Below are positions 4,564 to 21,782 of a stretch of 31,837 nt of DNA, piece after piece. The DNA comes from a virus: positions 1 to 31,837 of IMG/VR virus record IMGVR_UViG_3300044643_000665; one strand, 5' to 3'. Below the pieces are notes generated by a model. It had not been told where the DNA came from. It saw nothing but the letters and a program-made list of their open reading frames with translations, and ran no database searches. Within the stretch, counting starts at the first letter, position 1; every line of letters begins with the position of its first letter. Both the position numbers and the translations under genes were made by a program.

Positions 4564-4570
4564 TTTTTAA

Positions 4571-5440
4571 TTAGGCAACAATTATGGTAACTTGGTACTC
4601 ACCAAAAACGCAACCAGATGGTGATTCGGCAATAATAGTAAATAGATATGTTCCACTATCACCTACCCCAGCAACGAAATCAACAGTTCCTGCGCTATCA
4701 ATAGCCAAACTAATGTCAGTTATATTAGCTGAGTTAGCTAGTTGAACGATTGACCAGTTAGGAGAATCAACCCCCACCAAAGGGTGGTTTAGGGTTGCGG
4801 TCATATCTACGCTATATGTTCCAGAACTAACGCTCCAAACATTAGTGTTAAAAGTTGAACCAGTTTGTATTTCTACATCATAGTACAAGCCCTCAAGGAA
4901 TGTATCAGTATCAAAATCAAAAGGTAAAGGATTGCCCTTGGAAACCCATTGAATTGACACATCTGCCATTTGGTAGGTATTCAACTCTGCCGTAATTACT
5001 GGGTCTCCGATAACCGTAACATAATTTCCACTAGCATCCCAAATACGATTTGGAGTGAAGTAATAGAAATCATACTTAGCCGAACTGGAAAGCATATCAT
5101 TGTAGAATTGCACATTTGACTGTACTACTCCTTGCATATCTTGTACGGTTACGGTATGTGTCTTTGCTAGTGCCTTGGTAGTTTGCATACCCCGTCCTGA
5201 AACCGTAGCGGTATCGGGCTTTGGCTTTTCGCCAGAGGTATTAAATACAAGAAAAGCCTCGCCTAAAGCATAAGCCGAAAACAAAGATTCCATCCAATCC
5301 TCTGGTGTAGTTTTGATAATGTTGGATGCGTAACTTTTGCGAACAAATGCGACGGCTATAATTTTGTTTAGAAATTCAGGGTCACATTGGAAATTTTGGT
5401 AGCACCCGATAGTCGGGCAACTAAGTGAGTAAACGCTCAT
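4571..5440 (-). CDS. Tail-tube-like structural protein with Ig-like C-terminus
   Basis: A 289-aa beta-rich protein. The N-terminus is Cys-rich (CPTIGCYQNFQC). The centre contains PKPDTATVSGRGMQTTKALAKTH followed by an FYNDML and YFTPNRIWDASGN region, a pattern I associate with tail tube or tail structural proteins of Bacteroidota phages. The last 75 or so residues read like an Ig-like or adhesion domain. It sits between the 835-aa tail protein and the portal, each separated by a few bases and an AATTAAAAATG leader, so it is produced with the virion genes. An alternative is a capsid-associated protein; I see no HK97-type landmark in it. Confidence 0.6.
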   Translation of the reverse strand: MSVYSLSCPTIGCYQNFQCDPEFLNKIIAVAFVRKSYASNIIKTTPEDWMESLFSAYALGEAFLVFNTSGEKPKPDTATVSGRGMQTTKALAKTHTVTVQDMQGVVQSNVQFYNDMLSSSAKYDFYYFTPNRIWDASGNYVTVIGDPVITAELNTYQMADVSIQWVSKGNPLPFDFDTDTFLEGLYYDVEIQTGSTFNTNVWSVSSGTYSVDMTATLNHPLVGVDSPNWSIVQLANSANITDISLAIDSAGTVDFVAGVGDSGTYLFTIIAESPSGCVFGEYQVTIIVA

Positions 5441-5452
5441 TTTTAATTATGA

Positions 5453-7960
5453 TTAGCAATTTAAGCAAGTACTGTTTTTGGGTTGGTAACCCTGAACAAG
5501 TGCCGAGAATTTAACCTGAGATAAATCCTCAAATGAACTTTGTGTAGTGAAATCTTGGACGGTGGCAACCTCAATATCTCCGTTCACAAATAGGCTTTGA
5601 CCATTAACTACTAGGTACGGGTGTCGGGTGGCATCAACAAGCGCACATTGCGTTTCAAAGTCAAGAAAATCCGTATGCAAATCTATTGATAAATCTTGTT
5701 TGTTCTGTGGCCTTTTGTGGATTCCATTTGACTGCCTATAAACGCTTTCAATAATTACGGGTTTTTTTCCACCCCCGTTTATCCCTAGACGCACTTGCTG
5801 AAACCAGTTATTGTAATACTCAAATCCTTCCGCTATTGAATTATCAACAGACCAAAATTGCATTAGGGTACTAAAACAATCTGAATTATCAAGGTCTAGA
5901 CTGTTGCTAAGTGAATATAGTTCATCAATGTTTTCCGTTCCAGTGGGGTCTAATATATCCGAAAACAAGGATAGCGAAGTAAACACCGCAGACCCGTAGT
6001 CATAAAGCCCTATTTGGATGGTATAAAAGCCACTCACTAAATCTGTGTAGGGGTAAAGCGTTATAGTGATATTACTAAAAGCGTCTATTGATACCGTTCC
6101 GAAAGGTAGGTTGTTTTGAAGCCAAGTACCCAAGACCGTAAACGATGTTATCCAGTTAGGAATTGCAACTATATAATGAACGAAACCACTCCCGCTAACA
6201 AGTGCTAAATAGTAATTTAGGTTTGGCTCTAATGTTTGCGGTTCAAACTGCGATTCAAGCCCCCCTAGTGCGCTATCTTTCCGCAATAGCCCTAACCTAT
6301 AACAACCTTCTGAAAGGCTTGGAATAATGGCTGAGGCTTGTTGCTGCGTTCCAAAAACAAAAGGGGCATCAGGACAAGTTGCTGGTTCGCTTTCCCAAAT
6401 AATCGTAGGTTGTACTGGTTCAGATAATAAAATTAGGGTATTAACTATCCTATAAGACTTTTCACAAACTGCATTTGCAACCGTGTAAGACCATTCAAAA
6501 GATTGGGTTTCTGTATTTAAGATAAAGGATAGCCCAGCAATTTCTGATACATCTTCAACATCGCTAGTTGAAATTGAATTTGATGGCGCAAAAGAAAGTC
6601 CACCACTAGTAACTATATTATCCTCATTGTCAAGTACCGCAAAGTTTAAGCTATACCCAAACTCCCCCTCAAAATACTGATTTAGGCTTGCTAAATAATC
6701 AGCCCAAAAAGGCTCGTTTTGACTTATGCTATAAGTAAGTAACAAGGCGCACGGCTCACAAGCGCATTGATAAGATACTAATTCAGTACCTCCAATTTTC
6801 CTAATTAAATTACCAGCAGTATCAAAAACCCCAACCGATACCGCAGTATCCTCTAATATATTTGCGCTAGCACCAAGGACATTAAATTGAATAAAATCCC
6901 CTGCCTTGATTGGCATTGGATAAATCTCCTTTGGAGGATACCCGCACTCTTTGAAATCACAAAGGTCGTAGTCGTAAAAAGCATTGTAATACCTAACCAT
7001 ATAGTCAGGTGCTTCATAAGGGAGAGCCGTAAACCCGTCAAAGTCTACAAGGAAATTTACATCTGCATAAAATGGAGCGTAAAACCTTTGAAACATAAAG
7101 GTCGCCTCCTCCCGTAAAATCAATGTGTATCCAGCACCACCAAGTTGAAAAATATTAATCTGTAACCGTTGACCGCCACTAGTACTTTCCAAATATGAAG
7201 TAGAATACCCATCTGGCAGCGTCCAACTTTGGTAAAGGCTAAATAAATCTGCGTATAGAACGCCATCAGAGGCCGCTAGAGCGATTAGCTGCTCGTAAAG
7301 GCTAACAATGTACCGCCCATTCCCGTCAAGCGGTTGTAGCGCGATTTTGGGGCTGCTCCCACGAGGTAAGGTGTCAAGCGGTACTCGTACTGGATAACCT
7401 AATGCAGCGTCGTACTTACAGTCTTTAAACCGTGCTATGTATGATGTAGCCTCGCCAGTAACCGCATCAAATGAATAACCCTTTGGAAATATGGCAGAGC
7501 CGCTTTCATAATTAGAAACTAAGGCACGATAAGCATCACGCTCAATATCCAGTAAAGCGTCAGCATAGTTGTAGTATTGATTTAAAGTTCCTAGGAATGA
7601 AACCCTACTGAAAATTATAATTCCACTTGTATCGTATTCAAAAACCACGCTAATCCGCATTAATGGGTATTGCGTTACCACATTGGTATCGTAGACATAA
7701 AGTTGCCCACTAAACGGAAAAGACAAGGGTGAATTAAATCCTATGCGCTCACAAACAAAATGCGAATTATAGTTAAGATTCCATAACTGGATTGCGGAAT
7801 TTATAGTGGTAATTACATCGCTAACTAATTGACCTGAATAACTAGCATCAATATAGTAATAAAGCAAATCGGTGGCATTGGAAACACGCAATGCCCCCTG
7901 ACCCATAGACGCAACTTCTGGCGCATCCTCAAATCGGTAAAATGGGTTGATTGTTGCCAT
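5453..7960 (-). CDS. Large tail or baseplate structural protein (835 aa)
   Basis: An 835-aa protein with low charge, rich in Tyr, Ser, Asn, Phe and Leu, and mostly predicted beta structure, typical of distal tail or receptor-binding proteins. It has several isolated Cys pairs (CACEPC near residue 400, CLNC at the extreme C-terminus). The last 120 residues (GINGGGKKPVIIESVYRQSNG onward) look like a separate, more conserved domain that may attach it to the tail. It starts with TAATG, overlapping the stop of the fibre gene upstream. No enzymatic motif is seen. Its role in host binding or baseplate structure is inferred from composition and from its place among tail genes. Confidence 0.6.
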   Translation of the reverse strand: MATINPFYRFEDAPEVASMGQGALRVSNATDLLYYYIDASYSGQLVSDVITTINSAIQLWNLNYNSHFVCERIGFNSPLSFPFSGQLYVYDTNVVTQYPLMRISVVFEYDTSGIIIFSRVSFLGTLNQYYNYADALLDIERDAYRALVSNYESGSAIFPKGYSFDAVTGEATSYIARFKDCKYDAALGYPVRVPLDTLPRGSSPKIALQPLDGNGRYIVSLYEQLIALAASDGVLYADLFSLYQSWTLPDGYSTSYLESTSGGQRLQINIFQLGGAGYTLILREEATFMFQRFYAPFYADVNFLVDFDGFTALPYEAPDYMVRYYNAFYDYDLCDFKECGYPPKEIYPMPIKAGDFIQFNVLGASANILEDTAVSVGVFDTAGNLIRKIGGTELVSYQCACEPCALLLTYSISQNEPFWADYLASLNQYFEGEFGYSLNFAVLDNEDNIVTSGGLSFAPSNSISTSDVEDVSEIAGLSFILNTETQSFEWSYTVANAVCEKSYRIVNTLILLSEPVQPTIIWESEPATCPDAPFVFGTQQQASAIIPSLSEGCYRLGLLRKDSALGGLESQFEPQTLEPNLNYYLALVSGSGFVHYIVAIPNWITSFTVLGTWLQNNLPFGTVSIDAFSNITITLYPYTDLVSGFYTIQIGLYDYGSAVFTSLSLFSDILDPTGTENIDELYSLSNSLDLDNSDCFSTLMQFWSVDNSIAEGFEYYNNWFQQVRLGINGGGKKPVIIESVYRQSNGIHKRPQNKQDLSIDLHTDFLDFETQCALVDATRHPYLVVNGQSLFVNGDIEVATVQDFTTQSSFEDLSQVKFSALVQGYQPKNSTCLNC

Positions 7961-9471
7961 TAATAATTTGTTGTCTTGGATTGGTAGGTAAAAGTTCCGT
8001 TTACTAAAAGTCCTTGGTTGGAAGTAATCGAAGTACTATGTTTTGAACTTAACACGCAATACCAAGGTTCAAGGGAAACACCACTTACAAGTTCAATTAT
8101 TGCACCTTGGTCGGCAAAATTTCCTTGCGTTGTATTGCGAACAACTCCGTGTCCACTTACAACAAAATTGTCAGTATTTTGAAATGGTAATGGAAAATAA
8201 AGTAAAAATGTGTGTCCATTTGGGTTTTGATTAAATTTCCCCGTACAACTTACCATAAAACTTATTGTAACATTGTCGTTTACCACTAAATAGGTAGCTT
8301 GAACTTTGTCAATCGCAACTAAGGATGCGTTGCTAAAAACAACAATACTCCCACCCCCAACATTCAAATCATATAAATTATTGGCATCAAGACCATCCTT
8401 AAAATATTCAGAAATTCCCCATCCCGTTAAGTTGCTTCCCGTATGTGAATAAAATTCGGGAGGACTTGCAGTTCTTGATAAAAACCGACCAAAATAAGGT
8501 TCTTCCTTTTGAGCAATATTTTGGACATTCCTTAGAATTGGTCTTACTTGATTATCAAATATAACATTCCCTTGAAAATTTAATGTCGGTTCTAAAAGAT
8601 ATAGACTACTTCCCGCTTGGAAAATGGTGGTTGTTGGTTGGTCAATTAATATATTATTAAGTGAAAAAGAAGGGTTATTCCCTAAATTAGTATAAAAGTT
8701 AAATTCTTGTAATGCATTACTTGGTTCATTTCTTTTCGCTTGAATCGGATAATAATGATTAGTATCGGGATATCCGACTCGTACATTTTTTAAATCAAAT
8801 TCAAATTGCGTTTTTGCGAAAAATATAATATCCCATAGTGTACCAAAAATATCGTACCCTTGCGGAATAAGGTAATATGCGCCAATTTGTAATGCTTCTC
8901 TATCAATTAAGGATTGAAAGCCATTTAAAGAATTAAATTGGAAGAAATCACCTTGAAATCTCCGCAAACCAAGAATTGTAATTCTGTCTGATGCTTCAAA
9001 CTTAAAAATCAAAGTATCTCCACCATAGGTTTGAATATTCTGATTTGGTTGCATTGAAGACCCTGCGCCTGCATTTAAAGTACACCCATCTTGGAAAGTT
9101 GCGTAAAAAATTGAGCCTACAACTCCATTAAAATTGTCGATTGTAGTAGTTCCACTAATGAAAATCGAATTTCCATATACTGCGGTCAAATCAATATTAC
9201 TTGCACTTGCGATAGGGGTCGCAATTTGGTTTTGAACGAATTGGGCGGTCATTGTTACCGTATCCGTAAAATTCGCCCCACCATCGGATTGCAAAAGACC
9301 GCTAAAGGTGTTTTGCCCTTCAAAGGTGTTTGAATCCTTAAGGTTTGCCACCGATTCCCCGACATTGTCATTATAAGTCCGATGATTTTCGGGAATAATT
9401 TGACCCGATGAATTATCAAGAAAGGTAGCATCGCTTTCTGATTGTAGTTGCGCCCTTGTTTTTACTGCCAT
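7960..9471 (-). CDS. Tail fibre-like protein (503 aa)
   Basis: A 503-aa protein. I chose the ATG at 9471 although the frame stays open to 9693, because 9471 forms TAATG with the stop of the upstream gene, as at other junctions of this operon; the longer form would overlap that gene by over 200 bases. The N-terminus (VKTRAQLQSESDATFLDN) followed by NTFEGQNTFSGLLQSDGGANFTDTVTM repeats is the style of phage fibre proteins with a trimeric beta-helical or coiled shaft. The C-terminal 150 residues (from about SNLTGWGISEYFKDG) form a different globular beta domain that could recognise the host surface. Function is inferred. Confidence 0.7.
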   Translation of the reverse strand: MAVKTRAQLQSESDATFLDNSSGQIIPENHRTYNDNVGESVANLKDSNTFEGQNTFSGLLQSDGGANFTDTVTMTAQFVQNQIATPIASASNIDLTAVYGNSIFISGTTTIDNFNGVVGSIFYATFQDGCTLNAGAGSSMQPNQNIQTYGGDTLIFKFEASDRITILGLRRFQGDFFQFNSLNGFQSLIDREALQIGAYYLIPQGYDIFGTLWDIIFFAKTQFEFDLKNVRVGYPDTNHYYPIQAKRNEPSNALQEFNFYTNLGNNPSFSLNNILIDQPTTTIFQAGSSLYLLEPTLNFQGNVIFDNQVRPILRNVQNIAQKEEPYFGRFLSRTASPPEFYSHTGSNLTGWGISEYFKDGLDANNLYDLNVGGGSIVVFSNASLVAIDKVQATYLVVNDNVTISFMVSCTGKFNQNPNGHTFLLYFPLPFQNTDNFVVSGHGVVRNTTQGNFADQGAIIELVSGVSLEPWYCVLSSKHSTSITSNQGLLVNGTFTYQSKTTNY

Positions 9472-11885
9472 TAGTTGTATGCGTTTGAGTATGCGTTTGA
9501 ATAAGCCCCTGACTGGACTGGTGGTTCTGGGTCTGCTATATTGGATGATATTACCCTGAAAACCGTAGTACCGCCAGAATTGTCCTCTGGCTTGTTCTTT
9601 ATCTCCAATATCCACCCACTTACTGAAACGCTCCCTATGGTTACTTTTACCTTGCGATATGGGGTATAGTTTGCCAGTTGGATAAAGTCGCAAAACGCTT
9701 GCGGATATTCAAATTCAAAAATAATAGGTTTTAATAAATATTGCTTGTACTGCTCCGTTATTATTGAGGCATCCAAGTTGCCATCCTCAGCCAGTAATAC
9801 ATCAGGGTCTGTTATGATGCTGGTGTCCTCAATTACATAAGGTTGGATTTGCCTATTAACCGCAGAGTCAAAACGGGTTTTATATTGACCCACTTGAAAA
9901 CGGATTATAGGGCTTGCCATACCGTGCAGATTCATTCCCAGCATATTCCATTGCCTTAGCGATACTCGTGCACTAGAGTGGTATAGGTTGTAGCGAGAAA
10001 GGGTATCTCCCCAGCGTGAACTACTGCCGTTTTGTAAATTGCTTGCCCAAGATGCTCTATACTTAATTAGTAATACATCACCAGACTCCCCCTCAAAGCG
10101 GTACTCAGGGTTCTGCTCCCCTGCTGGAATTAAAACATCCTGCCTAATCGTCCAAATGATAAAAAACTGGTAGTCGTTTGGTCTATCGGATGAGCCTGAA
10201 TTGGTATCAAAGAACTGCAACCTTCTTGAGTACTCCACCGCTATGCCTTCCGCAATTATATCAGACTTCATTTCCAGCGTGCTTGTGCCACCGTTCAAAA
10301 TAGCCTTGTTACCGATAAAGTAATTACGGTCGGTGCAAATTGCATCAAGACCACCTAGGGCCATATTCTTCCAGTTATCCGAAAACCCTAACTTTAATTG
10401 ACCATAAAATTTATCAATTACTGCGGATTGCTTTAACTGCTCTACATTATCCAACGCCAACTCAACTTGGTTGACATAGAAATACTCGTAAGGCTCAACC
10501 CGTATTTTGTAAGACCCGTCAATTTGGAGTTCAAATGCCCAGCCCAAACCAAAGATTGCAGCAAGGCTTTCAAACGCTTTTTTAAATGATGTTTTTACTT
10601 GGATGTTTTGCCCGTTTTGAGGTAACCAGTTACGAAGTAGCAATCCAGTCGTAATTAGATTGTTTGCAAATATCCCATCGCTTGCCTCCCTAAAACAGTC
10701 ACTAACTAGACCTACTGGTTGCCCAGTTATTTGATAAATTAATCTATTTAAAAACCGCTCTACTGGTATGCAAGATGCGTTTGATGCGGATGCTGCATTT
10801 GACTCCCTTAGTGATATTTGCGCCCCTTGATAAATTTTGGCAATGCTAGTAACGGTTTGCGTTCCAGTAGATGTTATATTGTATTTTACCGTGCCGCCAG
10901 TACCCCATTGAATGTGGTACGACAATCTACCCCCAGCAGGAACGGTTACCGCTTGCGTTCCAGAAGGAACAAACCAATCTCTAGGGTTAGGTGTTCCAGT
11001 AGGCTCAAACATTGCAGAAGTGCCACTATCACTAGCGACTATGTATTGGTTCACAACCGCACCACCAGAGTCAAAAACATTAATTACTAAATCTAGGTTT
11101 AGCGTTTGAGCAGATTTGGGGGTTATGCCCGTGTAGTTGCTTTGCCAGAAGTAATAATTGACCCCTAGGCTAGCCCACGATATTGTGAAATCCCTTGGTG
11201 TAGTACCTCCTGAATTGTCTTGGAAAAACACATAACTACCAGACGGACGCTCTTGACCCATATCAATGGTGTCACCAAATATTCCATCAAAGTCACTTGA
11301 ATCCCAGTAGGTAGGGATTAGCATTTGAGCGAATGCGCCCTCCCAATCAAATCCCCCAGCAAAGTGATTAAATAGTGCTACCTCCCTATCCGCTAGAGAA
11401 CCCCCGTTACCAAGTAGACTAAGTTTTTGACCGTGAAGTCTGGTATTGACTGATATTGTTGAGCCATTTGGAATAGTGTTGCCGTCCAAATCTTTATTTG
11501 AAAACAAGTCAACCTCAACATCATAGCGTGCTTTGAATTTATCCCTAAATGAGTCCTGCAATATGCCAACGGATATAGACCAAGAGTCCGTATCACAACT
11601 ATTAATTTCCTCATAAGTACTAAAATCAACTACTCCTAGGTACTGGTAATTATTGGTTTCTACTTGCTGCGAACTTGTAATTAAAAGTGATACCGTAGCG
11701 GATACAAATGAGGTATCAAATGCCTCTTTGAGTATGTGCGCACCCTTACCATAGAATTGCAAAGCCGAACTAAACGGTTGGTCTATCCCGTGATTGTCGC
11801 TCCTTATAGCGGTGAACTCAACCGCATCCCAGCCGATAGGTTCTTCAACCTCTATGCCGTTCAGATAAAAACTCCATCCAGCCAT
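9471..11885 (-). CDS. Baseplate / distal tail protein downstream of tape measure (804 aa)
   Basis: An 804-aa protein encoded directly after the tape measure gene, where siphoviruses place distal-tail and tail-associated hub proteins. The N-terminus (MAGWSFYLNGIEVEEPIGWD) resembles Dit-like openings, in which a short beta motif is followed by a GxD/E segment. The rest is beta-rich with no lysozyme or peptidase motif that I can see. The C-terminus ends in SNAY repeats encoded by a perfect 12-base tandem duplication at 9477-9500. The stop overlaps the fibre start as TAATG. The baseplate role follows from position and size. Confidence 0.62.
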   Translation of the reverse strand: MAGWSFYLNGIEVEEPIGWDAVEFTAIRSDNHGIDQPFSSALQFYGKGAHILKEAFDTSFVSATVSLLITSSQQVETNNYQYLGVVDFSTYEEINSCDTDSWSISVGILQDSFRDKFKARYDVEVDLFSNKDLDGNTIPNGSTISVNTRLHGQKLSLLGNGGSLADREVALFNHFAGGFDWEGAFAQMLIPTYWDSSDFDGIFGDTIDMGQERPSGSYVFFQDNSGGTTPRDFTISWASLGVNYYFWQSNYTGITPKSAQTLNLDLVINVFDSGGAVVNQYIVASDSGTSAMFEPTGTPNPRDWFVPSGTQAVTVPAGGRLSYHIQWGTGGTVKYNITSTGTQTVTSIAKIYQGAQISLRESNAASASNASCIPVERFLNRLIYQITGQPVGLVSDCFREASDGIFANNLITTGLLLRNWLPQNGQNIQVKTSFKKAFESLAAIFGLGWAFELQIDGSYKIRVEPYEYFYVNQVELALDNVEQLKQSAVIDKFYGQLKLGFSDNWKNMALGGLDAICTDRNYFIGNKAILNGGTSTLEMKSDIIAEGIAVEYSRRLQFFDTNSGSSDRPNDYQFFIIWTIRQDVLIPAGEQNPEYRFEGESGDVLLIKYRASWASNLQNGSSSRWGDTLSRYNLYHSSARVSLRQWNMLGMNLHGMASPIIRFQVGQYKTRFDSAVNRQIQPYVIEDTSIITDPDVLLAEDGNLDASIITEQYKQYLLKPIIFEFEYPQAFCDFIQLANYTPYRKVKVTIGSVSVSGWILEIKNKPEDNSGGTTVFRVISSNIADPEPPVQSGAYSNAYSNAYN
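9477..9500 (+). repeat. Two 12-base tandem copies, GTATGCGTTTGA
   Basis: A perfect tandem duplication within the 3' end of the 804-aa gene (minus strand). It encodes the AYSNAYSNAYN tail of that protein and lies right at the junction with the fibre gene. Confidence 0.8.
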
Positions 11886-11903
11886 AAAGCAAAGGTATTT
11901 TAA

Positions 11904-14741
11904 TTACGAGTAAGCCTGAGGGAATTTATTATTTAGAACCTTTGTTGTGCGGCTTTCCGTTTTGATAAACTTTTGGAAACCTTTTTCATCCATTGTAATC
12001 TGGTGTATGGGTAATCCTTTCAAAATGCCGCCTATTTCCGACAATTTGTTTTCAATTAGGTTTGGCTTTTGCTGGACTTGCCCCCGTGACATTGATGCGT
12101 AAGCGATTTCCTGCCTTGACAGTAAGTGGTTTGGAATAACCTCCGAGCCGCTTGGCAAATCCATTAGGGTTGCGGTGGGTGGTGTATAATAAACCTTTCC
12201 AGACTGCGTCACAATGCGTTCTGTACCCCGTTCTCCTACCATAGCCTTACCACCTTTAAACTTCTTGCCCTTAGTACCCTCAGCAAACTCAGGAACGGGT
12301 TGAGCCATAATGAAACCAATCTGTGCGGCTTGCGCTGCAATGGCAATTACCGCCAGAGGCCCAGTAAGAACCCCTGCGATGTATCCTGCAATCAATGGTG
12401 CGGTGTTGAATATTACTTCTGCTATGGATTGCGCTCTGTTGGCTTCAAACTGCTTACGCTTAATCTCCTTTTCCTCCGCTGCCTTTTTGCGGTTGATGTC
12501 ATCCAGTTTCTGTTTGTTTCCATCTGCCAAGCGGATTTCCTCATCATACTTTTTTTGAAGTAAGGTTTGCTCATTGGCTAGTTGCTGCTGATATAAGTTG
12601 AAAAACCCTGCGGTGACTTGCGCACCTAGTTCCACCGCTGCATTAAATATCTCAAGCCGCTCCTTTGCGCTATCCTCATCCTGCTTTTTTAGTTCACGGT
12701 TTTTCTTTGCGTTTTCCTCTAGCAGTTTATCATTTCCAGTTTTGGCAGCATCTACTTCTAATTGGGAATATGAGTTATTAATGTCAATCCGCTCCTTATT
12801 GAATTTAATTTCATTTTGGGTGATTGCGGTTTGCAATTCCTTGTCCGATAGTCCGCTTTCCAGCAACTTGATTTGGGCATCCGATTGACGCTTATCAACC
12901 GCAGCCATTTCTTCCTCATACAGTACCGTCCAAAGGTCTTTTAAATCCTTAGCCCGTTGAGTTTTTAAAGCCTCATCATCTGTTTTATACTGGTTAGCTA
13001 TCTCCTTGTTTTGAGTAGCGATTATAGCTGGCAAAAGTTTAGCCGCCTCAGCCGCATCCGATACTTTTTTCTTTTCATAGTCTTTTGCTAGGGCTAGGAG
13101 TTCCAGATTAGTAGCCATTTCCAGTTCCTTTTTTGCCACCCCTTGACCCTCTGGTGACACTGTTTGTTTGATGCGCTCCTCCTCAAGTTTTTGATTTAGT
13201 TCTATTGCATCCTTCTTGTCTTTATACTCCTTCTGTGTAGCCGCCTCTCGTTTTTTAGCCGCAGCATCGGCTTTCCTATCAGCCGCTTCTTTTTTTGCAT
13301 CCGCTTTGGCTTGTGCTTTATCAGCCGCATCTTTTGCCTTGGCAGCGTCCTCCTCAGCCTTTTTGCGGTCATCCAGCCTTTTTATTAATTCATTGTGTGC
13401 GGCTTGGTTTATGGCCTCTAATGAGGAAAGCCTATTCTTTTCCGCTTTAATTGAGTTTTGAATAAATGTGTCATCCCTTTTTGACTTCAACATTCCAGAC
13501 TGGTTTCCAGCCATCATAGCCGCTTCATTAATATCTTGCGATTGTTTATTAGCAAGAATCTCAAGTTCCTTTATCTTTTTCTTTTGGATTTCAATTTCCT
13601 TGGCTGAATTGACTTCCGCATTGTTTACCGCAGCATCTGAGTTCTTTTTAAATTGCTCTGCATACTTATTAAAGGTTTTCCCCTGCTCTTCCTTGCGCCT
13701 TGCCTCATCCGTTTGAAATAGGTCTTTTAGGGTAAGCAAAAACGCAGCGGTTACCTTTACCGCCTTTTGATAAATTGGCCCTAGTGAATCCCCAATACTA
13801 ACTAGAAATGAATCCCACGCATCACCAAGGTTGCTTATAGACCCGTTTAGGGTTTCCGATTGAGCAGCCATAGCCCCAGTAACACCTTCAATACCGCCTA
13901 GACTAACGATATAATCTTGGATTGCTTTACTGGTAAAATTGACTTGCGTTTCCACCCCTTTAAATGTGAACTTGACTTTATCCCCCTCCTTTGAGGCACG
14001 GATACCAAACTCCTTTAAGCGTTCAAATTCCCCAGTTTGCGCATCAATCAAAGCCTCAGCCAACATATCAAAAGACTTGCCCGTGCTGGATGCTAGGTCA
14101 CCCATTGCGATAATCTGTTTGTTGGTAGGTTCAAACCCTTGGTTAGCCAACTTAACAAAAGATGCGGTTAGTTCCTCTACGGAGAAGGGTGTGGTAGCTG
14201 CAATCTCCTTAATTCGCAATAGAGCCCCTTGTGCTGCACTATCAGAGCCTAGGGTATTACGCAATACCGCCTCCAACGATTGGAAGCGTCCAGTCACATC
14301 TAATGCGGCTTTGCCAAATGATACCACCGCCCCAATGCTGAAAGCCCCAGCAATCGCAGGGCCAAGAGGGCCAAGTTTCCCCAGTAGACCTTGCAATCCA
14401 CCACCAGCAGAATTACCAGCATCTTTTATTTTTTTTCCTGCGGAAAATGCAGCCCGTTCAACCTTACCAAGTTCCTCAGTAACCTTTTTGAACTCCTTTG
14501 CTTTATTTTTGAACTCCTCACTTGCAGGACTTAATCTACTTAGCGAGGCCCGTAATTTATCAGACTGCGCTTGTAAGGATGCAAAACTGTTTATATCACC
14601 AGTGTCATCCAGTTCTTTATTGAATAACCTTAGTTGCGCGATTGCGTCTGCCTCCTCTTTGGTTAATTTATCAAAGGCAATTTGAGCCTTTAAAATATCT
14701 TCCGTATCAATGGTGTACTTAATCCGAATATCAGTAGCCAT
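11904..14741 (-). CDS. Tail tape measure protein
   Basis: A 945-aa protein with the layout of tape measure proteins. An N-terminal coiled region (1-115) is followed by a Gly/Ala hydrophobic segment (LLGKLGPLGPAIAGAFSIGA), then the TP901-type core with TGRFQSLEAVLRNTLG, AATTPFSVEELTASFVKLANQGFEP and GEFERLKEFGIRA (about 145-250). Next come a very long Lys/Ala/Glu coiled coil (350-760) and a second hydrophobic stretch (NTAPLIAGYIAGVLTGPLAVIAIAA) before a PVPEFAEGT / GERGTERI region. At roughly 1.5 angstrom per residue it would set a tail near 140 nm. It starts 33 bases after the end of the frameshifted chaperone frame, behind AAAGGATTAGACT, one of few starts here with a purine-rich AGGA upstream. 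Confidence 0.93.
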   Translation of the reverse strand: MATDIRIKYTIDTEDILKAQIAFDKLTKEEADAIAQLRLFNKELDDTGDINSFASLQAQSDKLRASLSRLSPASEEFKNKAKEFKKVTEELGKVERAAFSAGKKIKDAGNSAGGGLQGLLGKLGPLGPAIAGAFSIGAVVSFGKAALDVTGRFQSLEAVLRNTLGSDSAAQGALLRIKEIAATTPFSVEELTASFVKLANQGFEPTNKQIIAMGDLASSTGKSFDMLAEALIDAQTGEFERLKEFGIRASKEGDKVKFTFKGVETQVNFTSKAIQDYIVSLGGIEGVTGAMAAQSETLNGSISNLGDAWDSFLVSIGDSLGPIYQKAVKVTAAFLLTLKDLFQTDEARRKEEQGKTFNKYAEQFKKNSDAAVNNAEVNSAKEIEIQKKKIKELEILANKQSQDINEAAMMAGNQSGMLKSKRDDTFIQNSIKAEKNRLSSLEAINQAAHNELIKRLDDRKKAEEDAAKAKDAADKAQAKADAKKEAADRKADAAAKKREAATQKEYKDKKDAIELNQKLEEERIKQTVSPEGQGVAKKELEMATNLELLALAKDYEKKKVSDAAEAAKLLPAIIATQNKEIANQYKTDDEALKTQRAKDLKDLWTVLYEEEMAAVDKRQSDAQIKLLESGLSDKELQTAITQNEIKFNKERIDINNSYSQLEVDAAKTGNDKLLEENAKKNRELKKQDEDSAKERLEIFNAAVELGAQVTAGFFNLYQQQLANEQTLLQKKYDEEIRLADGNKQKLDDINRKKAAEEKEIKRKQFEANRAQSIAEVIFNTAPLIAGYIAGVLTGPLAVIAIAAQAAQIGFIMAQPVPEFAEGTKGKKFKGGKAMVGERGTERIVTQSGKVYYTPPTATLMDLPSGSEVIPNHLLSRQEIAYASMSRGQVQQKPNLIENKLSEIGGILKGLPIHQITMDEKGFQKFIKTESRTTKVLNNKFPQAYS

Positions 14742-14773: not shown

Positions 14774-15073
14774 TTAAGCGTTTGATGCGGCTTGTTTGCT
14801 ACGCTCTTTGCGCAGGTTTTTTACATAAAGCGAATACGCTAAGTAATACTCGTAGACGGGTCTTTCGACCAAGAATTTATAATCTTTAAGGTTTCCATTT
14901 GCCCAAGTAAGGCAGTCTTCAAATCGCTGCTTGAACCGTCTGATGGTAAACTGGTAGTAATATGCTTCAGTAGGTTTGTTAGATTTACCGTTTCGGCTTG
15001 TAAATAAGTCGGAAAACTCTGTGTCAATTCGTTGCCAGAGGGCAAGTACAGATACTGCGGCAGATTCAAAAAA
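14774..15073 (-). CDS. Tail assembly chaperone, -1 frame extension
   Basis: Reading -1 from the slippery run gives FESAAVSVLALWQRIDTEF, later RRFKQRFEDCLTWANGNLKD, FLVERPVYEYYLAYSLYVK and a basic end, stopping at TAA 14774. The composition (Trp, Tyr, Arg, Asp, Glu, Lys) is that of a real helical protein. There is no ATG of its own at the right place, so it is expected as a fusion: 175 zero-frame residues plus 98 from this frame, about 273 aa. In lambda and many siphoviruses the frameshifted GT form links chaperone to tape measure. A one-base deletion in the T-run would give the same picture. Confidence 0.7.
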   Translation of the reverse strand, partial: FFESAAVSVLALWQRIDTEFSDLFTSRNGKSNKPTEAYYYQFTIRRFKQRFEDCLTWANGNLKDYKFLVERPVYEYYLAYSLYVKNLRKERSKQAASNA

Positions 15074-15594
15074 AAACCTTCCACATCATTGTGCTTTGTC
15101 CAATGTTCAATCTTTTGCTTGTTGTATGGATACTCATAGTCTAATGGGTTTTCACGCTCATCAAAATAGACTACGGTTGCCAATTTTAGTTGACGAGTAA
15201 GCGAAAAGGAAAGTTCCATTTGCTCCTTTAATCTAGAGGCCAATATGCCCACCTCATAGAGTTTTTTCTCGCTGGAAAGTTTAGGATTGGTGATAGCATT
15301 TATAAGTGACTCAGTCCATCCTTTTAGGACGGTTGGGTCTATTTGCCATAGTTCCTCAGTAAGTATATCACGGGCCGCAATAGCCCTTTGAAACGGAATA
15401 TTAACCTCGGTGTTAAACTTGAAATAATTTACTCCCCCAGAGGTAAACGCATACTCAATTTGCGCCCAGCGTTCAGGGTTGCAGACCCCACAGTAGTTAG
15501 GAGTTTGGTTGGCTAGAGGTTCTTTGTCCAGTAACGGCTCTTGTAAAGGAGTACCAGAATTGCGAGGTGATTTATTCCTAAACCAAGAAAGCAT
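14839..15594 (-). CDS. Tail assembly chaperone, zero-frame product
   Basis: The zero frame gives 251 aa. The first 175 residues look genuinely coding: a CGVC pair near residue 36, then QIEYAFTSGGVNYFKFNTEVNIPFQRAI and a helical region. Position directly upstream of the tape measure gene is where lambda G/GT-type chaperones lie. After the nine-T run at 15068-15076 the zero frame becomes Leu/Thr/Ser-rich and less protein-like up to a TAG at 14839, while the -1 frame (14774-15070) carries convincing sequence. The zero-frame protein may still be the major product, as gpG is. The start overlaps the upstream membrane protein gene by 82 bases; no later ATG exists before residue 129. Confidence 0.72.
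   Translation of the reverse strand: MLSWFRNKSPRNSGTPLQEPLLDKEPLANQTPNYCGVCNPERWAQIEYAFTSGGVNYFKFNTEVNIPFQRAIAARDILTEELWQIDPTVLKGWTESLINAITNPKLSSEKKLYEVGILASRLKEQMELSFSLTRQLKLATVVYFDERENPLDYEYPYNKQKIEHWTKHNDVEGFFLNLPQYLYLPSGNELTQSFPTYLQAETVNLTNLLKHITTSLPSDGSSSDLKTALLGQMETLKIINSWSKDPSTSIT
15070..15076 (-). promoter_or_regulatory. -1 ribosomal frameshift heptamer U_UUU_UUU
   Basis: In the zero frame the codons are GGT TTT TTT TTG, so the first seven T form the canonical X_XXY_YYZ heptamer. Slipping back one base continues TTT GAA TCT GCC in the open -1 frame. A small hairpin, TTGCC-ctct-GGCAA, lies about 24 bases downstream (15032-15045), further than the usual 5-9 base spacer, so its role is doubtful. 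Confidence 0.65.
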
Positions 15595-15869
15595 ATTAAA
15601 AGAGGGATTTTAACTACAAAAAATGCGGTGGCAAGATACAACCAAGCACCAGAACAAAAAATGCACTCACCCAGCGGCTTGGCTAGGTTGGGCGGCATCC
15701 TCGTCAATATCCCAGCGTAATACTTTCCAAGTGGGTGTTCCTCCAGTAGATAATCTATGAATACAGACAATGCTGCGGATACTATTGCTATCAATAGGGT
15801 TTGGAATACCGTCACAAGGCAGTACCACGACCTTGCACCCTCTACGACCACATCTTGCATTAACTCCAT
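15513..15869 (-). CDS. Membrane protein with ECIFCSGAW motif (118 aa)
   Basis: A 118-aa protein with a first membrane segment at about residues 17-36 (LVTVFQTLLIAIVSAALSVF), a loop with HPLGKYYAGILTRMPPNLAKPLG, the motif CIFCSGAWLYLATAFF (Cys69 and Cys72) entering a second membrane region, and a third at 88-108. The KPLGxCxxCxxxW pattern recurs in small membrane proteins of Bacteroidota phage tail modules; the function is unknown, and envelope anchoring or a holin-like role is only a guess. The ATG follows TAACAAAA just after the previous stop. It is overprinted by a 71-aa ORF (15667-15882) in another frame and overlaps the chaperone start by 82 bases. The stop is TAG. Confidence 0.68.
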   Translation of the reverse strand: MELMQDVVVEGARSWYCLVTVFQTLLIAIVSAALSVFIDYLLEEHPLGKYYAGILTRMPPNLAKPLGECIFCSGAWLYLATAFFVVKIPLLICFLGLGINHLAILVLLYKSRYWTKNL

Positions 15870-15882: not shown

Positions 15883-16267
15883 AAAAAGCGTTATCTATTG
15901 CGTTCAAATTAATTATTGAATTGGCAGCAGGATTATTGGCAAAGAAAAAATCAATGCCCCCGTATGTGTTACCGTCTTTAGCGATAAAGTCAATATGTTG
16001 AGTGCCGCTAGTATCCCAGAACTCCATCCTATATCGTGCATAAGGGGTAAAGAATCCTTCGGGGAAAAGCGTTACATCTAGCACCGCCCAGCCCGTTGAA
16101 ATGGTAACTACATTGTCAATGCTTGCCCCGTTTACTTGGTCGTTTTTAATTACTTTCAAGCGGATGTAGGTAGGCTCATAAGACGGTGGTGTCCTAACAT
16201 ATAGGAAATCAAAACACGGGATTAAGCCCGAGCAAGTTGAGTAATAACTATTGCAGCAGTTTTCCAT
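15875..16267 (-). CDS. Hypothetical virion-module protein with Cys-rich N-terminus (130 aa)
   Basis: A 130-aa beta-rich protein starting MENCCNSYYSTCSGLIPCFD, four cysteines in the first 18 residues, then TYIRLKVIKND, VVTISTGWAVLDVTLF and FFTPYARYRMEFWD segments. It is probably a small structural or assembly protein, since it sits between the terminase and the tail chaperone. I preferred the ATG at 16267 over the frame opening at 16336: it overlaps the terminase stop by only 20 bases, and the Cys-rich opening is the style of neighbouring genes. No named family can be given. Confidence 0.65.
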   Translation of the reverse strand: MENCCNSYYSTCSGLIPCFDFLYVRTPPSYEPTYIRLKVIKNDQVNGASIDNVVTISTGWAVLDVTLFPEGFFTPYARYRMEFWDTSGTQHIDFIAKDGNTYGGIDFFFANNPAANSIINLNAIDNAFYD

Positions 16268-17582
16268 TGAACTTTTCCAGATTGTAATTGCCAGTAATTT
16301 CAGCAAAGTTAGAAAAAACAAAGTACCTAAAAGCATCCAGAGCGTGCGACTTGTCAGGGTTTTTTAGTTTCCAAGGGTCAAGACTGCCTTTACGGTCAAC
16401 CTTTGCCTCTTTTAAGTCACCTAATAAATCCTCGCAATTTGGTTTACTTATTCTAACTACGCATTTCTGAAAAAATAATAATGTGACTAGGCGGCTAGCA
16501 ATGTGGCTAGGGTTTGCCCTTGGCACTTGGATTGATATTTCAGGTATCGCCATATAATTAGAAATTAATTGATAGGCATTTATATTGTCACTAGTGAATG
16601 CGCTCCTACTGCTTCCAGATGCGTCTCCATTAATTACAAATGTGCAGTTAGGATACTCCTCTCTAACCATTTGACAAAGCGTGGAAAGGTCGCCCACTCT
16701 ATACACTTTTAGGATATTTACTGTGGCATAGGTTTCCGCATCATTTGAGTTCTTTTGGTACTGGCAGACAATACAAGTGTTACTAACATTGAAGTCAAAT
16801 GCTAAATAGACTGGTAGACTGGTTACCGCTTTGATTTGCGCATCAACCCCGTGCGTTTGGTTGTCAAAACTAGATGCAAATAGGTTTTCCCTATCCCAAA
16901 CCCCCCATTGACCAAGCGCATAAACCTCATAGTAGGTTTGATTGACGGTCTTGAGTGCAGACATCCTAACTGGATACTCATCATCCAAAAATTCAAGCGC
17001 ATCTAGATAAGTGCCGTGCATAATTAGGATGTTGTCTTTCTCTATGGCAGGGGGCTTATCAAAGAACCTTTGCTTTATCCAATGGGAGTCTGATACGGGA
17101 TTGAAGGTAAGGTAGAACCGTTTAGGATGTTTTGACTTACCCCGTAGTCGTAGGGTGATTTGAGTGAAGTCATCCAGCGTTAGTTCGGTAGCTTCCTCAA
17201 TCCAGATATATTTTGCCTGACTAAGTGATTTTAGTTTTTCAGGGTCATCGCATCCAAGGAAGATAATTTTATTACTGCCTGAGTGTATTTCCAAATATCC
17301 CCTGCGAAACTCGACCATTGAGTCAATTCCCCAGCCCGTAACCTTATTCCTGAAATCCGCATAAACTGAATTACGCAGCGTTCCAGCGACCTTTCTAATT
17401 ACGAAGTATGTTTGGTTCTGGTTGGCTTCGTGGTTGCATATTTCCGAAAGGAATAGCTGAATCATTGTTTGACTCTTGCCACTCCCTGCGCCCCCGAAAA
17501 GGATATTGTAGGTCTTTGGGCTATGGGTTACCTCAATGTACTTCCTTTGCCATAGACGGGGGTTTGATAAGTCCAGAACCAT
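16248..17582 (-). CDS. terL: Terminase large subunit
   Basis: A 444-aa packaging ATPase-nuclease. Walker A is GGAGSGKS at residues 30-37, with an adenine-contact Gln at 12 (LWQRKY). Walker B is KYIWIEEATEL (Glu129, Glu130), with a coupling motif around LTFNPVS (158-164). The RNase H-like nuclease has candidate acidic residues Asp263 (LAFDFN), Asp320 (NGDASG) and Asp416 (HALDAFRY). The length suits the terminase_3/terminase_6 families. It pumps DNA into the procapsid through the portal and cuts the concatemer. The ATG overlaps the small-subunit stop as TAATG; the gene ends with TAG inside the next gene. Confidence 0.95.
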   Translation of the reverse strand: MVLDLSNPRLWQRKYIEVTHSPKTYNILFGGAGSGKSQTMIQLFLSEICNHEANQNQTYFVIRKVAGTLRNSVYADFRNKVTGWGIDSMVEFRRGYLEIHSGSNKIIFLGCDDPEKLKSLSQAKYIWIEEATELTLDDFTQITLRLRGKSKHPKRFYLTFNPVSDSHWIKQRFFDKPPAIEKDNILIMHGTYLDALEFLDDEYPVRMSALKTVNQTYYEVYALGQWGVWDRENLFASSFDNQTHGVDAQIKAVTSLPVYLAFDFNVSNTCIVCQYQKNSNDAETYATVNILKVYRVGDLSTLCQMVREEYPNCTFVINGDASGSSRSAFTSDNINAYQLISNYMAIPEISIQVPRANPSHIASRLVTLLFFQKCVVRISKPNCEDLLGDLKEAKVDRKGSLDPWKLKNPDKSHALDAFRYFVFSNFAEITGNYNLEKFNGKLLQ

Positions 17583-17900: not shown

Positions 17901-18425
17901 TTAACTAGGTATCCAAGCCTGCGAATAAGGCTTATCCAAGTCAGGGTGGTCAATTACTTTCAATCCAGCGGTAAGGCGAACAACCTCCTCCCGTTCCATT
18001 GATAACCGCTCCATCACCTCCTCTATTGATAGCCCTTCCTCTAGCATACTTCCAACAATGCGCCCCATAGCAAGAACCCCGTGCCGCCCTCTAGCCCTAT
18101 TGTGCCGAATGGTTGACATCTTTTGGTGTTCACGGTCTTTTGGCTCTAGAATAACTACTGGCACAAAACCGTCAGTAAGTGCAAAAATCTCTTTATGCCC
18201 AGATACCGTCCAGCGGTGAAACCCGTCTACTATTGTCATATCTGGGTTGGCTACTATTGGCTGCGTCCATCCGTCCTCTAAGATACTTGTTTTAAGTAGG
18301 GTTAGTTCAGGGGGCGCAACTGAATTAGGGTTGTAATCGTTTGGCGATAATTTACTGCGGTGAATCCACCTTACATTTTCTAGAGGCATTATCCTGCCAT
18401 CAGGCAGTTTCTTTTTGGTTTCCAT
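17901..18425 (-). CDS. IbrB/YbdM-like ParB-fold protein
   Basis: A 174-aa ParB/Srx-fold protein: NDYNPNSVAPPELTLLKTSI with DGWTQPIV, then TIVDGFHRW (66-72), the ParB phosphate-binding motif in its IbrB/YbdM form, then a helical C-terminal part with a helix-turn-helix look (GLSIEEVMERLSMEREEVVRLTAG). It follows an IbrA-like PP-loop gene with a 26-base overlap, the same pairing known as ibrA-ibrB and ybdN-ybdM in enterobacteria. ParB-fold proteins can be CTP or ATP hydrolases, kinases or nucleases; which applies here is unknown. The start could instead be the ATG at 18389. The frame to 18473 is not used, since it lies deep in ibrA. Confidence 0.78.
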   Translation of the reverse strand: METKKKLPDGRIMPLENVRWIHRSKLSPNDYNPNSVAPPELTLLKTSILEDGWTQPIVANPDMTIVDGFHRWTVSGHKEIFALTDGFVPVVILEPKDREHQKMSTIRHNRARGRHGVLAMGRIVGSMLEEGLSIEEVMERLSMEREEVVRLTAGLKVIDHPDLDKPYSQAWIPS

Positions 18426-19692
18426 AGTACCGTTTTTTATAAGTTTCTGACCCGTATTTATTAACCGCTTCATCCCTAGTTAGCCCAGCCTTCTCCCGTG
18501 CGGTTTTAGCCTTGAAAGGTATGCGCTGCAACTGCCTTTGCTTTGTGTCACCCCGTACCGCTATACGAGCAAGGAACTCCCACGATATACCAGTAAGGGG
18601 GCAAGCATCCTTCTCATTTTCGGATATAGGAAAGTCTGTTTGGTTTTTGTGCCAAGTGATAATCCTATTCATTTGCTCAACCGACATTTTTTTTGCTTTT
18701 GGGGTCATTGATTCCAAAATGCGCTTTGTATAGATTGACCACGGTACTTGTTCTTCCTTTTCTGGCTTAGTTCCCGTGTAGATTCCTTCATTGTGGTACA
18801 TCCTTGCGGTTTTGACTCCTTCAACCCGTTCCAGTATTTTATGCCAAAACTCCCCGTAAAGAATAGGCCATTGGTCTAGAGCCCTTAGTGACTCCTCTGC
18901 AAATATAGCACCGACCCTTTGCTGCTCAAGTTTATTGTAAGACTCGGTCATTTGCTTTAAGTCGTACTCTGTGTTGTATGGCAGCCCAGTTTCACGGGTG
19001 TACTTCCAGACATCCTTGGCAAACCAGTCGTAGATTGGGTACGCTACTGGCACATTTGAGGATATGTAGCACTCACTTTTTTTACGGGTCATAATGGTAA
19101 ACCGTGCAGGGCTTTCTGCGGCCCGTATTCCAGCAAGGTTGATGCAGGATATACCCCTCTTTGCGTAATTGTCAGCAATTAGGTCGCACATATCTTGCAT
19201 TACGCTACAATCTCTAACCGCATTAGATTTGAATGGTAATCCGTCAGGGTTTTTGTAATTAGGGTCGTAAATAAATTTACTTCCTGCTAGATGCGTGGTA
19301 GCCCACTCAGGAATTTCCCTTACCCAAATGTCTTTTTCAAGTGGATTCCAAGCGTACCAGAAAGGGCTGGTAATTGAGCAAGCATTTCTAACTATGAATG
19401 GGATAGCGTACCACTTCATTGATACCTCCTCCATATCAAAAACCTCCTTTACAAATTTTAGGGTGCTTTGCCCCTCTATTTCGTGGTCAAAAAAGGTAGC
19501 CTCTACTGGTAGTTTTCCAAGTTCCCGTGCTACCTCTATTGTCAAGTAAAGCAAGGCGGTTGAATCCTTACCCCCTGAAAAATTAACTATGACTTTGTCG
19601 TAGGTTTTATAAAGGTGATGTATCCTTTCCTTTGCTGCCTCAACTACATTTATGTCTAGGAAGTGTTTATCCTTATGAATAGTCTTTTTCAT
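18400..19692 (-). CDS. IbrA/YbdN-like PP-loop ATPase (PAPS reductase fold)
   Basis: A 430-aa member of the PAPS reductase / PP-loop superfamily, larger than true PAPS reductases (about 240 aa) and matching the IbrA/YbdN (DUF3440) layout. The PP-loop is SGGKDS at 39-44, then LAGIRAAESPARF (187-198) and YPIYDWFAKDVWKY (218-231), followed by a roughly 200-residue C-terminal extension with CPLTGISWEF. Such enzymes activate a substrate by adenylation and often transfer sulfur; the substrate here is unknown. It is translated next to a second PP-loop protein upstream and an IbrB-like protein downstream. It starts behind TTGTAATT. Confidence 0.85.
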   Translation of the reverse strand: MKKTIHKDKHFLDINVVEAAKERIHHLYKTYDKVIVNFSGGKDSTALLYLTIEVARELGKLPVEATFFDHEIEGQSTLKFVKEVFDMEEVSMKWYAIPFIVRNACSITSPFWYAWNPLEKDIWVREIPEWATTHLAGSKFIYDPNYKNPDGLPFKSNAVRDCSVMQDMCDLIADNYAKRGISCINLAGIRAAESPARFTIMTRKKSECYISSNVPVAYPIYDWFAKDVWKYTRETGLPYNTEYDLKQMTESYNKLEQQRVGAIFAEESLRALDQWPILYGEFWHKILERVEGVKTARMYHNEGIYTGTKPEKEEQVPWSIYTKRILESMTPKAKKMSVEQMNRIITWHKNQTDFPISENEKDACPLTGISWEFLARIAVRGDTKQRQLQRIPFKAKTAREKAGLTRDEAVNKYGSETYKKRYYGNQKETA

Positions 19693-19694
19693 AA

Positions 19695-20414
19695 TTACAA
19701 TTTGGCTAGGTACTGCTCAACCCGTGGGTCGTATTTGGCTGCGCAATTTAAGTAGGTAGGTGCGTGCCGTCTTACCGCATCAAAAGCATCCTCAATGCTG
19801 CCACGCTCTGCATACGCTTTGTGAGCAAGGGTTATCCAAGTGTGAAGGTGAGGACTTCCAGTCTTATAGCAGGACGGGTAATTTAGATTTTTGCTATTGA
19901 TGTACTCCCAAACTTCCTGCTTTGTCCAGTCGTGAATGGGGTGACACTGCGCAGTTCTCCCGTGTTTTGCAGTAAGATAAACGGGCCTTAATATGGTGTT
20001 TTCCTCTTTCCTCCTGCCATAAATTTGAAGCCTCAATTTGTTGGCCTTAGCAAACTTTGGCATAGATACCCAGTGTCGTACCTTGTCAAGGGTTGACGGC
20101 CTCCATTTGGCTGGTGGCATTTGATTCAACCAATGTAGTTCAGCAAACTTTTCTGGTGTATGTTGATGGTGGTAGGTAGGGTCTATCCCTATGGTTTCAG
20201 CAGCCTTTTGGATTTCAAATAGCGTGCCGTCTGGCAATAGGCTAGCCTCACAGAATGCTTTTGTTACTCCGATGGTTTCTTTTACCAGACTAGCCATAAC
20301 AATAGAGTCCTTACCCCCAGAAAACATTATTGCCGTTGTGTCAGGGGTTGCATCAAATACCTCATACGCATCCGCAATAATGCGTTTCGCAGAGTCTATT
20401 TTTTTTAAAATCAT
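19695..20414 (-). CDS. PAPS reductase-like PP-loop ATPase
   Basis: A 239-aa protein of the phosphoadenosine phosphosulfate reductase fold, with SGGKDS at 32-37, LQIYGRRKEEN (129-139) in place of the usual GxRxxES, and HPIHDWTKQEVWEYI (158-172). The catalytic ECGLH-type C-terminal motif of true PAPS reductases is not seen, so this is more likely an adenylating or sulfur-transfer enzyme, as in phage PP-loop proteins and DndC. Its ATG overlaps the cupin stop (ATGA) and it ends two bases before the IbrA-like gene, so the three are tightly coupled. The substrate is unknown. Confidence 0.82.
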   Translation of the reverse strand: MILKKIDSAKRIIADAYEVFDATPDTTAIMFSGGKDSIVMASLVKETIGVTKAFCEASLLPDGTLFEIQKAAETIGIDPTYHHQHTPEKFAELHWLNQMPPAKWRPSTLDKVRHWVSMPKFAKANKLRLQIYGRRKEENTILRPVYLTAKHGRTAQCHPIHDWTKQEVWEYINSKNLNYPSCYKTGSPHLHTWITLAHKAYAERGSIEDAFDAVRRHAPTYLNCAAKYDPRVEQYLAKL

Positions 20415-21196
20415 TTGGTCTGTATTTCCTTGATTAGACTTGCTGAAACTCCATCAACTATGGTACGGTTAATCATAGGGTGAACTTCATCCGTTGCTCC
20501 AAAATCACTATCGGGGTGAAACGCTATAACATCCATACTTGAGTCACGGGTTTCAAATGCGTGTTGACCTATTGGGTATATGCCACCATCTTGACCCACT
20601 GCGGTCGTTACCCCATCCCATTCTTTAATTATGAATATGTTTCCTTCATCCAGCGGTAAGTTGCCGAAAGGGGTAATACACCTACCTGACCCTTTTGCGA
20701 CCACTCCGATTCTATGACTTGGATGAGTGTGCTGCGTTTGGTCTATGTTGGTTGGAAAGTGCAAATGATTAAAGCAAGGGTCACCCATTTTAACTGGTGG
20801 TATCAAAAGACTATCCGTGCATCCGTCAATATATTTCAACCTTCCTTGCGCCTCAATTTTACCCCCTATTGAAAAAAAGGCTTTATAATCCTTGTACTCC
20901 TTTTCAGGGATAATTTCAATTATTATAGCCTTTCCAGACATATACTTGAGGATAGTTAGTTTACTATTTGACACAAAGTATTGACCGCTTTTTAAATGTG
21001 TATTAGGTAAGTCTGAGAAATTTATGTTTACCCCACCCTTGTAGATATATCCGAAATAACTGTGGTTTTTTTTGGGCTTGAAACCCTCTCCGTCAATTAC
21101 ATTGTAATACCTAATTGGGAATTTTGGGTGATTGCTTTCATCAAGTAATAGCCCTGAGGTATTATTGTCAAATAGTATAAAACTGCTAGTTTCCAT
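20411..21196 (-). CDS. Double-domain cupin protein
   Basis: A 261-aa protein with an N-terminal RmlC-like beta domain (about 25-110; HSYFGYIYKGGVNINF, LKSGQYF) and a C-terminal cupin (about 120-235) carrying NHLHFP, QHTHPSHRIG (His156, His158, His161 as likely metal ligands), a GSGRC..PFG..PLDEGNIFII core and a second His212 (GQHAFET). The SSMDVIAFHPDSDFG and HPMINRTIVDG segments near the end look family-specific. Metal-dependent oxidation or isomerisation is possible; no substrate can be named. It lies between the ParB-like gene and two PP-loop genes, which suggests a joint pathway. Confidence 0.72.
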   Translation of the reverse strand: METSSFILFDNNTSGLLLDESNHPKFPIRYYNVIDGEGFKPKKNHSYFGYIYKGGVNINFSDLPNTHLKSGQYFVSNSKLTILKYMSGKAIIIEIIPEKEYKDYKAFFSIGGKIEAQGRLKYIDGCTDSLLIPPVKMGDPCFNHLHFPTNIDQTQHTHPSHRIGVVAKGSGRCITPFGNLPLDEGNIFIIKEWDGVTTAVGQDGGIYPIGQHAFETRDSSMDVIAFHPDSDFGATDEVHPMINRTIVDGVSASLIKEIQTK

Positions 21197-21197
21197 T

Positions 21198-21782
21198 TTA
21201 ATTATAATTAGAAATTATGTGGAACAATGCTTCACCTAGCGAACCGCCTTTTGTTTCTTGAACGGATTTTAAAGCGGCTATTACTGTTTCTTTTTGCTCC
21301 TCTAGCATTACCACTTCAAACCGCACATACCCTTCATCCGTAATTTTAGGGTCTTGAATGGTTACAGAATCCCCGTCGTCATCCCCTAAATCTCCAAAGG
21401 AAAGTAAATCCGCAGCCGTGCCGAAATTGTACTTATCAACCCCCCACTCAACTAAGTTTTCCATATCCCAGTTATTCGCTAGGTCATCCCAATTCCAAGC
21501 CCCGAATTCAACATTATCTTTAATCATAAACTCCGCTTGTTTTTCAGGCGACCAGTCTACGATTTCAACTTTGGTTTCCTTTATCCCTGCTTCTTCCAAT
21601 GCCCTAAGGCGCATATTGCCACCTAGAACAATCAGTTGCTCATTTACTACTATTGGCCTTGCCTCTAGCATTTCAGGAAACTCCTTTAAACTTTTAACTA
21701 ACTTTTGAAACTTATCATCCTTAATGATACGAGGGTTATTCGGATGCGGTTTTAGGTTTGAAACCTTAATTACTTTCAACAT
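21198..21782 (-). CDS. ParB-like nuclease-domain protein
   Basis: A 194-aa protein with an N-terminal ParB domain: LKPHPNNPRIIKDDKFQKL (10-28), RPIVVNEQ and LGGNMRLRALEEAG (53-66), the phage variant of the GERRxxA motif. A short linker leads to an acidic C-terminal part (LGDDDGDSV). Phage proteins of this kind are usually encoded near the small terminase and have been suggested to act as nucleases or nucleotide-dependent switches; no direct function is known here. It begins TAAATG right behind the 48-aa gene and is the second gene of the late operon. Confidence 0.85.
   Translation of the reverse strand: MLKVIKVSNLKPHPNNPRIIKDDKFQKLVKSLKEFPEMLEARPIVVNEQLIVLGGNMRLRALEEAGIKETKVEIVDWSPEKQAEFMIKDNVEFGAWNWDDLANNWDMENLVEWGVDKYNFGTAADLLSFGDLGDDDGDSVTIQDPKITDEGYVRFEVVMLEEQKETVIAALKSVQETKGGSLGEALFHIISNYN

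Follow-up and report, generated by a model that had tools for sequence, protein, structure and literature searches.

Organization of the locus

Directly upstream of the gene for a tail tape measure protein (TMP), a viral reading frame crosses a run of nine thymines (T9), beyond which a second frame is also open. The question raised by this locus is which of the two frames is used after the run, and how the second one is reached. The window analyzed is the stretch of 31,837 bases of IMG/VR record IMGVR_UViG_3300044643_000665, in which the structural genes lie on the minus strand.

A sequence-only reading of the locus had called a 251-aa zero-frame product containing the nine-T run, and an open -1 frame of about 98 residues ending just before the TMP gene. 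The window sequence bears out both. The zero-frame ORF (14839-15594, minus strand; 251 aa) comprises the N-terminal domain common to the two potential products and a zero-frame tail of 78 aa, and its family includes at least 126 distinct relatives. The run occupies 15076 to 15068 on the minus strand, in the zero-frame phase GGT TTT TTT TTG, and includes a T_TTT_TTT heptamer (15070-15076, minus strand). From T9 the -1 frame runs uninterrupted until the stop codon at 14774-14776; its tail (14774-15076, minus strand) is 100 aa long plus the stop, FFF of the run included, and the corresponding fusion product has 273 aa. The dual-coded overlap of the two tails spans 14842-15067 (minus strand), and a gap of 32 nt separates the -1 stop from the start of the TMP gene at 14741.

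The TMP gene (11904-14741, minus strand) was identified by its matches to PHROG tape measure families and by synteny, together with a Pfam TMP_3 match (1.4e-9) that falls just below the gathering cut-off. On the other side, g118 (118 aa; 15513-15869, minus strand) is syntenic in the relatives and shares 82 nt (15513-15594) with the beginning of the frameshift gene. The gene order across loci is TerL (terminase by Pfam), g153, g118, frameshift gene, TMP and g804, and 62 of the compared loci had a detectable TMP gene downstream. Neither g118 nor g153 matched a PHROG or Pfam family, and neither was recognized as the major tail (tube) protein.

Several features elsewhere in the window were also recorded. 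TerL and the 153-aa gene, the latter syntenic in relatives, overlap by 89 nt on the same strand (16248-16336). The region 1733-14741 (minus strand) has an unusual order, with portal and minor-head-like genes placed after those for the tape measure and the tail; no major capsid gene was recognized. At about residues 300-335 the portal-like protein (2590-4563, minus strand) has a zinc-finger-like stretch of the DnaJ type, CXXCXGXG. At 17901-21782 (minus strand) there are two adjacent genes of the PAPS-reductase family, one with a DUF3440 domain, and near this pair lie two ParB-like genes whose ParB matches do not reach the Pfam cut-off.

Conservation of the nine-T run

Relatives of the gene were collected by successive IMG/VR searches, which returned 2, then 70, then 172 sequences; a separate IMG/VR search with the -1 tail alone as query returned 182. 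None was found in the 85,000 bacterial and archaeal genomes searched, nor among the annotated phages searched.

Exactly nine T were present in all 126 distinct IMG/VR relatives that cover the slip site. The phase of the run was identical in every relative compared with the N-terminal part, except L175; this sequence, with an indel ahead of T9, was excluded from the comparison. Two positions of the run, T1 and T4, are synonymous in the zero frame; over 47 independent pairs they showed no change, against 18.7 and 6.3 changes expected at the synonymous rate of the N-terminal part. Since these positions stay unchanged despite being synonymous, this conservation shows that the slip run itself is under selection. 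T8 and T9 are likewise invariant among the relatives, though the heptamer does not need them.

One relative, L004 (930-1000), resembled a natural in-frame fusion of the two parts. Its downstream part is 100% identical to that of L066, whereas its upstream part is 70% identical to L066 and 89% to L045, and an additional base lies close to the junction. This candidate fusion was rejected: the sequence looks chimeric or recombinant, and the additional base creates the apparent fusion.

Entry into the -1 frame

In the non-redundant set of 90 sequences, the -1 frame always contained a stop 0 to 6 codons upstream of T9 (90/90), and its first 40 codons were always devoid of ATG, GTG and TTG (90/90). 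An independent start for the -1 tail was therefore rejected, and a change of frame at T9 is the only route into it. The relatives are thus split at T9 in the same way as the window, their -1 part lacking a start of its own, and the frame change proposed by the sequence-only reading is strongly supported by conservation.

Both frames are conserved after the run

The zero frame was open for 69 to 87 codons past T9 in all interpretable relatives. It was interrupted only in the chimeric L004, in L175 with its upstream indel, and in one contig cut by its own end. Median identity to the window was 51% for the zero-frame tail versus 41% for the -1 tail. The pattern of substitutions also differed between regions. 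Codon position 3 took 82% of the substitutions in the single-coded part upstream, while in the overlap zero-frame positions 1, 2 and 3 took 17, 26 and 57%, the third being position 1 of the -1 frame. The overall substitution rate went from 0.100 per site in the upstream single-coded part to 0.060 in the overlap.

Substitutions in the 47 independent pairs were classed by their effect in the zero frame and then in the -1 frame (S, synonymous; N, nonsynonymous; X, stop), with single-coded controls on both sides of the overlap. In the N-terminal control, the values were 0.40 for SN, 0.48 for SX and 0.015 for NS. In the overlap they were 0.13 (0.09-0.17), 0.011 and 0.080 (0.06-0.11), respectively, and in the control beyond the zero-frame stop NS was 0.32 (0.24-0.40). 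Changes silent in the zero frame but altering the -1 frame were thus 3-fold rarer in the overlap than in the N-terminal control, and 44-fold rarer when a -1 stop would result. Conversely, changes silent in the -1 frame but altering the zero frame were 4-fold rarer than in the control coding for the -1 frame only. Codon shuffling was applied in both directions to 19 diverse genomes. With the zero-frame protein fixed, an open -1 frame had P ≤0.014 in each of the 19; with the -1 protein fixed, P for an open zero frame was 0.03-0.37 per genome, and this frame was open in all 19.

Because silent-in-one-frame changes are depleted relative to the controls on both sides, these substitution patterns show that both frames are under purifying selection over the overlap, which covers about 226 bp or roughly 75 codons. 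The earlier statement of a degenerate zero frame beyond T9 is not borne out. It had also been proposed that homologs conserving the zero-frame tail instead of the -1 tail would speak against frameshifting; the zero-frame tail is indeed conserved, but not instead of the -1 tail, which is conserved too.

Two simpler accounts of the locus can be weighed against these data. The true run could be ten T, misread through a sequencing or assembly error, so that the gene would be a single continuous ORF. One window by itself could not rule this out, but T9 was found in all 126 distinct sequences, drawn from many metagenomes, and a continuous ORF would leave the zero-frame tail free of the selection that is seen; the ten-T alternative raised with the sequence-only reading is excluded by the relatives and has a practically negligible probability. 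The other account, implied by that same reading, is that function lies in the -1 tail alone, whose codons leave the zero frame open as a mere by-product. The position of the zero-frame stop is indeed tied to a conserved -1 motif, YEYYL, and with the -1 amino acids held fixed, a single genome has an open zero frame by chance with a probability of 3-37%. However, the third zero-frame position, which is position 1 of the -1 frame, is the most variable site in the overlap (57%), NS substitutions show the 4-fold depletion relative to the -1-only control, and conservation is higher in the zero-frame tail than in the -1 tail (51% versus 41%). The substitution classes, controlled on either side of the overlap, led to rejection of the by-product account, and we consider it very improbable.

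Ribosomal or transcriptional slippage

A -1 change at T9 could take place during translation or during transcription. As the sequence-only reading proposed, T_TTT_TTT is an X_XXY_YYZ heptamer in the correct phase for ribosomal -1 slippage, and its synonymous positions T1 and T4 are conserved. This part of the proposal stands; the ribosomal mechanism itself does not follow, T9 being equally a classic run for transcriptional slippage. No stimulatory RNA structure was found after T9: the consensus fold of 19 diverse sequences contained no pairs, and single folds were mostly unremarkable. Downstream structures of this kind are common, but not obligatory, in -1 programmed ribosomal frameshifting.

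RNA polymerase may instead slip on T9 and add a U, so that some mRNAs would carry U10 and be read conventionally into the -1 tail, with the same products and the same dual coding. The length of the run is canonical for this process, for which a homopolymer of 8 or more A or T is the criterion (PMC3711429). The invariance of T8 and T9, unneeded by the heptamer, and the lack of a detected conserved downstream RNA stimulator also point in this direction. Loss of one U would lead to the +1 frame and an immediate UGA; indeed, in 88 of 90 sequences the +1 frame meets a stop no more than 2 codons after the run, which is consistent with polymerase slippage. On the other hand, T8 and T9 may be held invariant by amino-acid constraint in two frames, and the well-studied tail chaperones rely on ribosomal frameshifting (PMC5009743). 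We regard polymerase slippage as a serious candidate that falls somewhat short of an even chance. Because the tail chaperones studied so far use ribosomal slippage, we lean towards that mechanism, and a ribosomal shift at T_TTT_TTT is ranked as somewhat more likely than polymerase slippage on T9.

A putative tail assembly chaperone

The hallmark of lambda-type tail assembly chaperones is a conserved shift to the -1 frame in the gene just before TMP (PMC5009743). On the basis of gene position and frame change, a lambda G/GT-like tail assembly chaperone is the best functional reading of the gene, as the sequence-only reading had also suggested. The position upstream of TMP and the conserved frame change sustain this assignment, but sequence and fold comparisons do not add to it: the products had no match to tail assembly chaperones or other families in Pfam, PHROG, PDB sequences or Foldseek. 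AlphaFold modelled the products with low confidence, the zero-frame product at pLDDT 63 and the fusion at 47. The fusion model was built from the L004 sequence and had alignment depth only in the tail, because joint alignments of the N-terminal part and the -1 tail were misaligned and were kept out of modelling. Both tails were predicted to be helical.

The gene might alternatively encode another phage protein with two isoforms, preceding the tape measure gene by chance. This would fit with the lack of a family or fold match, with the fact that no adjacent tail tube gene was recognized, and with the unusual alternative-tail layout. However, a frame change into -1 in a gene just before TMP, in syntenic order, is the usual chaperone signature, and we judge a role other than tail chaperone to be rather unlikely.

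Comparison with known systems

The likeness to phage lambda gpG/gpGT concerns layout. Both genes lie directly upstream of TMP and specify two products with a common N-terminal part, and both have a slippery heptamer in zero-frame phase for a -1 change (GGGAAAG in lambda, T_TTT_TTT here), whereas homology between them is not detectable. The lambda zero frame closes 5 codons past the heptamer, giving a short and a long form; here it continues for 69-87 conserved codons, and the products differ little in size but have alternative tails. Phage P2 gpE/gpE+E' also has a T-rich slip site (TTTTTTG) with a -1 shift upstream of the tape measure gene T, but its zero frame ends 6 codons past the slip, compared with 69-87 here. 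The two frames are jointly open over at most 48 nt in HK97 and at most 219 nt in D29, so some known phages may have a longer overlap of the zero and -1 frames. Tail frameshifts were reportedly surveyed by Xu et al. (Mol. Cell, 2004; cited in PMC5009743).

Outside phage tails, the transframe region of HIV, gag p6 and pol p6*, is dual-coded over a long distance beyond a -1 slip site; the proteins are unrelated and the analogy is one of layout only. In Shigella mxiE, an extended product has been reported from RNA polymerase slippage, which is known for A or T runs (PMC5009743, PMC3711429); that gene is also unrelated, and slippage is reported there, whereas here it is a candidate only. No description of a layout with two alternative conserved tails was found in the literature searched, most subscription journals being outside that search. 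The layout is a variant of the known frameshifted tail gene arrangement.

Proposed mechanism and significance

Altogether, we think it quite probable that one start codon gives rise to two proteins with dual-coded tails through a programmed -1 change at T9, in the manner of lambda gpG/gpGT. An N-terminal domain of about 173 aa would be common to both products. Normal decoding would yield the 251-aa protein with its 78-aa zero-frame tail, and a programmed shift to -1 at T9 the 273-aa protein with a different tail of 100 aa. By likeness to lambda, the shared domain may coat the tape measure protein, and one of the tails may recruit the tail tube subunit.

Whether the system goes further and acts as a tail assembly switch seems to us about as easy to believe as to doubt. 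Instead of lengthening the chaperone, such a switch would exchange its C-terminal domain: in a large group of uncultivated phages, slippage at the invariant T9, perhaps by RNA polymerase, would choose between two dual-coded tails, one some 78 aa and the other some 100 aa long. If this is true, the zero-frame tail has a function of its own that is absent from lambda-type gpG.

Frameshifted tail chaperones are textbook knowledge, but in the best-studied cases, lambda and P2, as measured here, the zero frame ends a few codons past the slip. Here a stretch of roughly 75 codons specifies two conserved protein sequences. The phages concerned number well over a hundred and lie outside phage and protein family libraries, and automatic annotation will list one product and miss the other. 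The family thus offers a clean natural case for the study of dual coding. It also raises the question of whether tail length could be controlled by two alternative domains rather than by a short and a long form.
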